Source of the DNA: Candidatus Poribacteria bacterium
GTDB lineage: Bacteria; Poribacteria; DTPJ01; WJIO01
Assembly (NCBI GenBank): GCA_014730235.1
Contig: WJIO01000246.1
Location: 1-17,736 of the forward strand
Direction of reading: 5' to 3'
DNA: 17,736 bases
Made by a program: the position numbers and the translations under genes. The first letter of the stretch is position 1; every line of letters begins with the position of its first letter. Positions 1,525 through 14,475 of this stretch are shown here, piece by piece. Below the pieces are notes generated by a model. It saw only the letters and a list, made by a program, of their open reading frames with translations. It ran no database searches and was not told the origin of the DNA.

Positions 1525-1656
1525 TTTTAAACCTCATTTAACACTTCTGAAGATAAGGAAATTGTTTTCATAATATTCATAATAGTGCAAAGGATTTATC
1601 CCCCATGTTCTGGTATCGGCATAAATTCATTATTACTTTAGATAAAAAAGATTAAT

Positions 1657-1776
1657 AGTTCTTCCGGGCTTGGTGTATTTATAATTGAAAATTTTCTCAG
1701 CTTGTCATTCCTGCGAAAGCAGAAATGACAGCATAAAGAAGTTTCTTATCTTTACCACACTGAACCCGGAAGAACC
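1657..1776. mobile_element. 120-bp MITE, ISL3-like ends, perfect 8-bp target duplication
   Basis: Left end AGTTCTTCCGGGCTTGGTGT and right end (read inward) GGTTCTTCCGGGTTCAGTGT are imperfect terminal inverted repeats. Directly outside both ends stands AGATTAAT (1649-1656 and 1777-1784), an exact 8-bp target-site duplication. The core is a hairpin with arms 1703-1714 and 1719-1730, a GAAA loop and one mismatch. There is no coding capacity, so it must have been moved in trans. GG-starting GGTTCTTC tips and 8-bp duplications are typical of the ISL3 transposase family; that assignment is from family knowledge, not a search. Confidence 0.85.
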
Positions 1777-1795
1777 AGATTAATTCACTTATTCA

Positions 1796-10084: not shown

Positions 10085-10205
10085 GGTTCTTTCGGGTTTA
10101 GTGTGGTAATATTGAAATGATTTTATGAGCTTGTTATTCCTACGAAGGCAGAAATGATAAGCAAAGCTGGTTTTTCTTGATAAATACATTTAACTCTGAA
10201 GAGCT
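10085..10205. mobile_element. 121-bp MITE copy with decayed right end
   Basis: The left inverted repeat GGTTCTTTCGGGTTTAGTGT (10085-10104) continues with GGTAAT and is close to the family consensus. The right end is degenerate: 10189-10205 matches the consensus CTGAACCCGGAAGAACC at about 11 of 17 positions and ends GAAGAGCT. The flanking 8-mers AAATTAAT (10077-10084) and AAATAAAT (10206-10213) agree at 7 of 8, supporting these borders. The core hairpin (TTATTCCT...AGAAATGATAA) is also decayed. It lies 18 nt after the lipoprotein stop and 31 nt before the DUF1080 start. Confidence 0.7.
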
Positions 10206-10236: not shown

Positions 10237-10980
10237 ATGGCAAAAAACATCGGTTATGACGACACACCTATGCTGCCTGATTCAAAATGGCATGTGCATG
10301 ATGGCAAAAGACCGCAACCAAGAGTTGTAACACCTGGAACATGCAGCACTCAGGAAACACCCGGCAAAGCACCCTCTGATGCTGTTGTATTATTCGATGG
10401 TAAAGATACATCAAAGTGGGTTGGCAAAGATGGTGGGCCTGTGCAGTGGAAGGTGGAAAATGGATACATGGAGGTTACCCGAACAGGAAACATCCAGACT
10501 AAAGAACATTTTGGCGATTGCCAGCTTCATATTGAATGGGCTGCACCTGCCGAAGTAAAAGGGGAAAGCCAGGGCCGCGGTAACAGCGGTGTATTTCTTA
10601 TCGGAAAATATGAAATTCAGGTTCTGGATGGTTATGATAATATCACTTATGCCGATGGTATAACGGCTTCCGTATACGGAGAATATCCACCGCTGGTTAA
10701 TGCGTGTCGGAAACCGGGCGAGTGGCAGACTTATGATATAGTCTTTGAAGCACCTCTTTATGAGGATGATAAACTGGTAAAACCGGCTTATGCGACAGTA
10801 TTTCATAACGGCGTTGTAGTTCATAATCGCGTAGAGCTTCTGGGCCCTACTGGCCACAGAAATCTGCCCAATTATGATACACCTCACGGCCCCGAAGGGC
10901 CTTTGATGCTTCAGGATCATGGTGATCCTGTCCGTTATCGCAACATATGGATCCGTCCTCTTAAAGGATATGATGAGTAA
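10237..10980 (+). CDS. DUF1080 (3-keto-glycoside hydrolase-like) protein
   Basis: From the ATG at 10237 (AGGAGA 6 nt upstream) the protein is 247 residues. An earlier in-frame TTG at 10177 lies inside the MITE and is unlikely. The domain starts at VVLFDGKDTSKWVGKDGG and includes GYMEVTRTGNIQTKEHFGD, then RGNSGVFLIGKYEIQVLDGY, then PLMLQDHGDPVRYRNIWIRP. This is the concanavalin-like jelly roll of DUF1080 (PF06439). Members cleave 3-keto-glycosides made by Gfo/Idh/MocA-type oxidoreductases. There is no signal peptide, so it looks cytoplasmic, unlike many family members. A Gfo/Idh/MocA gene lies at the window end. The substrate is unknown. Confidence 0.88.
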   Translation: MAKNIGYDDTPMLPDSKWHVHDGKRPQPRVVTPGTCSTQETPGKAPSDAVVLFDGKDTSKWVGKDGGPVQWKVENGYMEVTRTGNIQTKEHFGDCQLHIEWAAPAEVKGESQGRGNSGVFLIGKYEIQVLDGYDNITYADGITASVYGEYPPLVNACRKPGEWQTYDIVFEAPLYEDDKLVKPAYATVFHNGVVVHNRVELLGPTGHRNLPNYDTPHGPEGPLMLQDHGDPVRYRNIWIRPLKGYDE

Positions 10981-14312: not shown

Positions 14313-14475
14313 GGTTCTTCAGGATTTAACTTGGTAATAATAGGAAATTCTATATGCTGTTATTCCTGCGAAAGCAGGAATCTAGTCTTTATGCGGATCT
14401 ACTGGATTCCTGCTTTCGCAGGAATGACAAGCTGAGAGCGTTTTCAATTATTACCACACTGAACCCGGAAGAACC
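14313..14475. mobile_element. 163-bp MITE with double hairpin core
   Basis: Left end GGTTCTTCAGGATTTAACTT...GGTAATAAT (14313-14341) pairs with the right end ATTATTACCACACTGAACCC...GGAAGAACC (14447-14475). The core has two 8-bp hairpins with identical arms, ATTCCTGC/GCAGGAAT, at 14362-14381 (GAAA loop) and 14406-14425 (TTTC loop). The flanking 8-mers AATAAACT (14305-14312) and TAATAACT (14476-14483) share the last four bases and agree at 5 of 8, a possibly decayed duplication. The left flank includes the methyltransferase TAA. The right end stops 23 nt before the next start codon. There is no coding capacity. Confidence 0.75.

Follow-up and report, generated by a model that had tools for sequence, protein, structure and literature searches.

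The dRS3 repeats of Neisseria carry hairpin arms of the ATTCC(C/T)...GGAAT kind. Among mobile elements, insertion sequences of the ISL3 family classically duplicate 8 bp of target DNA, an AT-rich example being TTCTTTTT (PMC7643977). MITEAba12 is a 113-bp non-coding bacterial MITE with ISAba12 as its proposed parent and with movement ascribed to the trans action of a resident IS; it makes 9-bp duplications, and 90 copies have been identified over many genomes (PMC6382973). The TIMEs are non-autonomous miniature elements derived from Tn3 and, in the sections of the report drawn on here, are described as forming mosaics (PMC4133298).

Here we describe a MITE from a Candidatus Poribacteria genome (assembly GCA_014730235.1), with three copies in a stretch of 17,736 nucleotides on contig WJIO01000246.1, hereafter the window. 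Like the ISL3 insertion sequences it has an 8-bp AT-rich duplication (PMC7643977), and similar tips stand at the ends of ISL3 genes, but it is 120 bp long, carries no transposase gene, and no complete ISL3 element with identical tips was found. It shares with MITEAba12 the character of a short non-coding bacterial MITE with movement ascribed to an IS in trans; the two differ in the length of the duplication (9 bp against 8 bp) and in abundance, 90 copies spread across many genomes as opposed to several hundred tips within a single one. TIMEs are likewise non-autonomous and mosaic-forming, yet they belong to the Tn3 family, and arm exchange at a hairpin is not described in those sections of the report (PMC4133298).

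When three sequence strings were looked up in the papers covered by the search, the sole match was a Neisseria hairpin, ATTCCCGCGAAAGCGGGAAT occurring in one Neisseria paper. The MITE resembles dRS3 and similar ATTCC-hairpin repeats in its hairpin arms, but unlike dRS3 the MITE hairpin lies mostly between transposon tips: within 124 kb of fetched loci, which had been chosen for carrying the MITE, both tips flank 43 of 54 hairpin places. Literature searches for ISL3 together with MITEs yielded no named relative, nor did a plasmid search yield any match to the MITE. The suggestion in the preliminary description that the MITE is undescribed agrees with these literature and plasmid searches, ISfinder lying outside their scope. 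We regard it as a new family within a well-known class of elements, remarkable mainly for its copy number and its interchangeable arms.

Structure and setting of the element

Copy 1 lies between two exact AGATTAAT octamers that are 128 bases apart and form the sole direct repeat family reported in positions 1600-1830 of the window (Table 1). The 120-bp element with an exact 8-bp target duplication that had been noted at first sight is therefore present as described, and so is its GAAA-loop hairpin core: CTGC-GAAA-GCAG folds within a longer stem, and the DNA fold of the copy (-24.2 kcal/mol, z -5.4), good over the whole element, was equalled by none of 200 shuffles. The terminal repeat of 29 bp proposed for this copy is real but overstated in length, since 11 bases are exact (GTTCTTCCGGG) and agreement falls from 16/20 over the first 20 bases to 20/29 over 29. 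Copy 1 begins with A, whereas G is the first base of most copies.

Copy 1 occupies a gap (1525-1884) with a response-regulator-like ORF on one side and a 689-aa ORF on the other, and in the ORF list of the window no ORF of at least 70 aa overlaps it. Copies 2 and 3, which are both worn, likewise lie between ORFs, provided that the gene after copy 2 begins at the ATG at 10237. A comparison of the window with Rfam gave zero matches. Separately, a worn hairpin core without tips is found at 209-230.

Table 1. Positions of the MITE copies and their parts in the window.
Feature	Positions	Strand	Remarks
Left target-site duplication AGATTAAT	1649..1656	.	
MITE copy 1, 120 bp	1657..1776	+	hairpin core with the X arm before it and the Y arm after it
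Left terminal repeat, exact part GTTCTTCCGGG	1658..1668	+	
Hairpin core	1705..1726	+	TCATTCCTGC-GAAA-GCAGAAAT
Right terminal repeat, exact part GTTCTTCCGGG	1765..1775	-	
Right target-site duplication AGATTAAT	1777..1784	.	
Worn MITE copy 2, 121 bp	10085..10205	+	flanks AAATTAAT / AAATAAAT agree 7/8; right tip set by eye
MITE copy 3, 163 bp	14313..14475	-	two hairpins, a GAAA loop being followed by a TTTC loop; flanks agree 5/8

Copy number and distribution

A search of the 5.5-Mb genome with the 23-base tip GGTTCTTCCGGGTTYAGTGTGGT, allowing up to 2 mismatches, gave 285 forward and 275 reverse matches, 560 in all, whereas the reversed pattern used as a control gave 0 in either direction. These are counts of tips and not of elements, and would correspond to about 280 elements if most tips are paired. 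A DNA search of the same genome, with 40 of 871 first-look candidates scored, returned at least 41 long matches in one orientation.

Outside this genome, the 23-base tip at the same threshold occurred once in 57 other relatives searched, and a search of 83 other genomes of the phylum for the 21-base tip with 1 mismatch gave no match. Among the matches listed, exact 21-base tips are present in other phyla, in MAGs whose titles give Deltaproteobacteria, Nitrospirae or Planctomycetota, and those elements that were read have different interiors. One of them, in a deltaproteobacterial MAG (L055:5968-6154), is a 187-bp element with GGTTCTTC tips, another interior and, as compared by eye, the flanks acttttac / acctttac. 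The exact tip was not found in viral contigs.

Target-site duplications

We assembled 56 elements from the fetched loci by pairing nearest tips less than 180 bp apart. The loci came from searches with copy 1 or its tip, the first query extending 16 bases into either flank, so that the 56 are a subset of the genome's copies drawn by similarity and not at random; one locus, L091, contributes two overlapping pairings. Exact direct flanks of 8 bp bound 27 of the 56, as compared with 2, 1, 0 and 2 elements at lengths of 4, 5, 6 and 7 bp and none at 9-12 bp. An earlier set of 63 tip pairs, which included some mispaired tips, had 28 exact 8-bp flanks, against 1.2% exact under shuffled pairing. Because further copies exist genome-wide and their 8-bp flanks agree at a rate far above that of shuffled pairs, the bounded element seen at copy 1 is confirmed to be more than chance.

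The 27 exact octamers comprise 24 distinct sequences, mostly with A first and T last, and flank octamers are 89.5% AT as compared with 59.4% for the window, which shows that the targets of the family are AT-rich. The copy at L062:1381-1521 shares its exact flanking octamer, AGATTAAT, with copy 1, and where the loop usually stands it has a longer stem (TTCAAGCTTTTTGAAAAAGCTTGAA).

The element could be imagined to be a REP-like palindrome that spread by some route other than transposition, its tips being part of a larger hairpin. The good folding of the entire element would suit such an origin, as would the core occurring without tips at 8 of the 54 hairpin places, but one would not then expect 27 of 56 copies to carry an exact 8-bp duplication at defined tips, and we consider this origin very improbable. 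The element is short and non-coding, has terminal inverted repeats and occurs in multiple copies with target-site duplications; from the tip copies and the exact 8-bp direct flanks it follows that this non-coding, 120-base mobile DNA bounded by 8-base target duplications is a MITE family.

Probable relationship to ISL3 transposases

We believe, with a probability of roughly 0.8, that the MITE is a non-autonomous miniature element moved by an ISL3-type transposase encoded elsewhere. Such a DDE transposase would bind the GGTTCTTCCGGGTTYAGTGTGG tips, and insertion of the element into AT-rich DNA would then produce the 8-bp duplication. ISL3 mobilisation is the best inference because of the duplication length, the target bias and the tips.

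The genome itself has three ISL3 (PF01610) matches, all of them fragments at contig ends. In one (C342) the gene ends in GGTTCATCCGGT, which agrees with the MITE tip at 11/16 positions; in another (C391) the agreement is 7/16. A deltaproteobacterial MAG in which exact tips are present (G088) has three ISL3 3' ends (L100-L102), near-identical and so counted as one observation, in which the stop codon lies inside the tip GGCGGTTCCGGGTTTAGCATGGG. The right end of the MITE aligns with this 3' end over 25 bases with a score of 36 (5,000 shuffles: mean 14.9, maximum 28, none as good), although the shuffles take no account of G088 being the best of the ISL3 loci examined and of the MITE end being a consensus read from fetched copies. 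Three of the first five bases differ between the two tips. We infer that the 3' end of an ISL3 gene gave rise to the right end of the MITE. The ISL3-like tips of the preliminary description find support in C342 and G088, whereas the low agreement of C391 speaks against an ISL3 origin.

That description also looked for many copies with differing 8-bp duplications and a full-length ISL3 transposase gene sharing the ends. The former are present, whereas neither the genome nor the samples searched yielded a full-length ISL3 carrying these exact tips. A search combining the tip with a transposase motif matched G088 alone; the tip with the motif YGFRD, which is unsuited to the ISL3 clade of G088, had no match in 193 relatives of G088; and the lone long ISL3 in the phylum (L070, open frame 549 aa) has no such tip. 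At another locus (L033), a match of score 32 at 461-490 was rejected as the ISL3's own end, as it lies about 280 bases past the gene-end tip (182); it is probably a nearby MITE-type tip.

Duplications of 8 bp are also made by some IS66, ISAs1 and IS256 elements. Movement of the MITE by a transposase of another such family would accord with the lack of a complete ISL3 partner, but is improbable; in the search, which was directed at ISL3 transposases, the tips resemble ISL3 gene ends in two genomes. The ISL3 assignment, as judged from sequence comparison, is indirect but well supported and the most likely one.

Interior of the element

What is new here is that the tip and the hairpin core are constant while the intervening arms vary and occur in different pairings, and that two-hairpin forms exist. 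Arm type 0 is paired with type 1 in 46 of the 56 pairings, and the remainder combine types 0 to 6 otherwise, types 5 and 6 both deriving from the doubly paired L091; two pairings are without a usable core. The arm pairings include 0-1, 0-4, 1-4, 1-2 and 1-3. In the 120-bp class, with copies oriented alike, the loop is GAAA in 19, TTTC in 7 and other sequences in the remainder, and the two-hairpin form is seen in 2 copies, one being copy 3 of the window.

The core is a shared structural module and may be the point at which arms were exchanged. Recombination there would swap halves with the same tips around the shared palindrome to give new arm combinations, and two-hairpin forms would collapse to one hairpin with the loop in either orientation. 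This would explain both the arm pairings and the loop orientations, though we hold it to be somewhat doubtful. It is quite possible, if short of even odds, that several MITEs arose independently from different ISs with similar tips and that no arms were exchanged at the hairpin; arm types 2, 3 and 4 are few and unequal in length, which speaks for such origins, but the same arm types recur in different pairings.

The same core is also found at three loci without GGTTC tips (L006:2450-2471, L009:1405-1426 and L011:2636-2657), with arms like TTACAAAATTTG and CAACTAAATTAT; these are perhaps a second repeat family that shares the core.

With 560 tips in one genome, the family is a clear case of strong MITE amplification in a bacterium, and its constant hairpin between seemingly exchangeable arms provides a tangible starting point for studying the diversification of MITEs.
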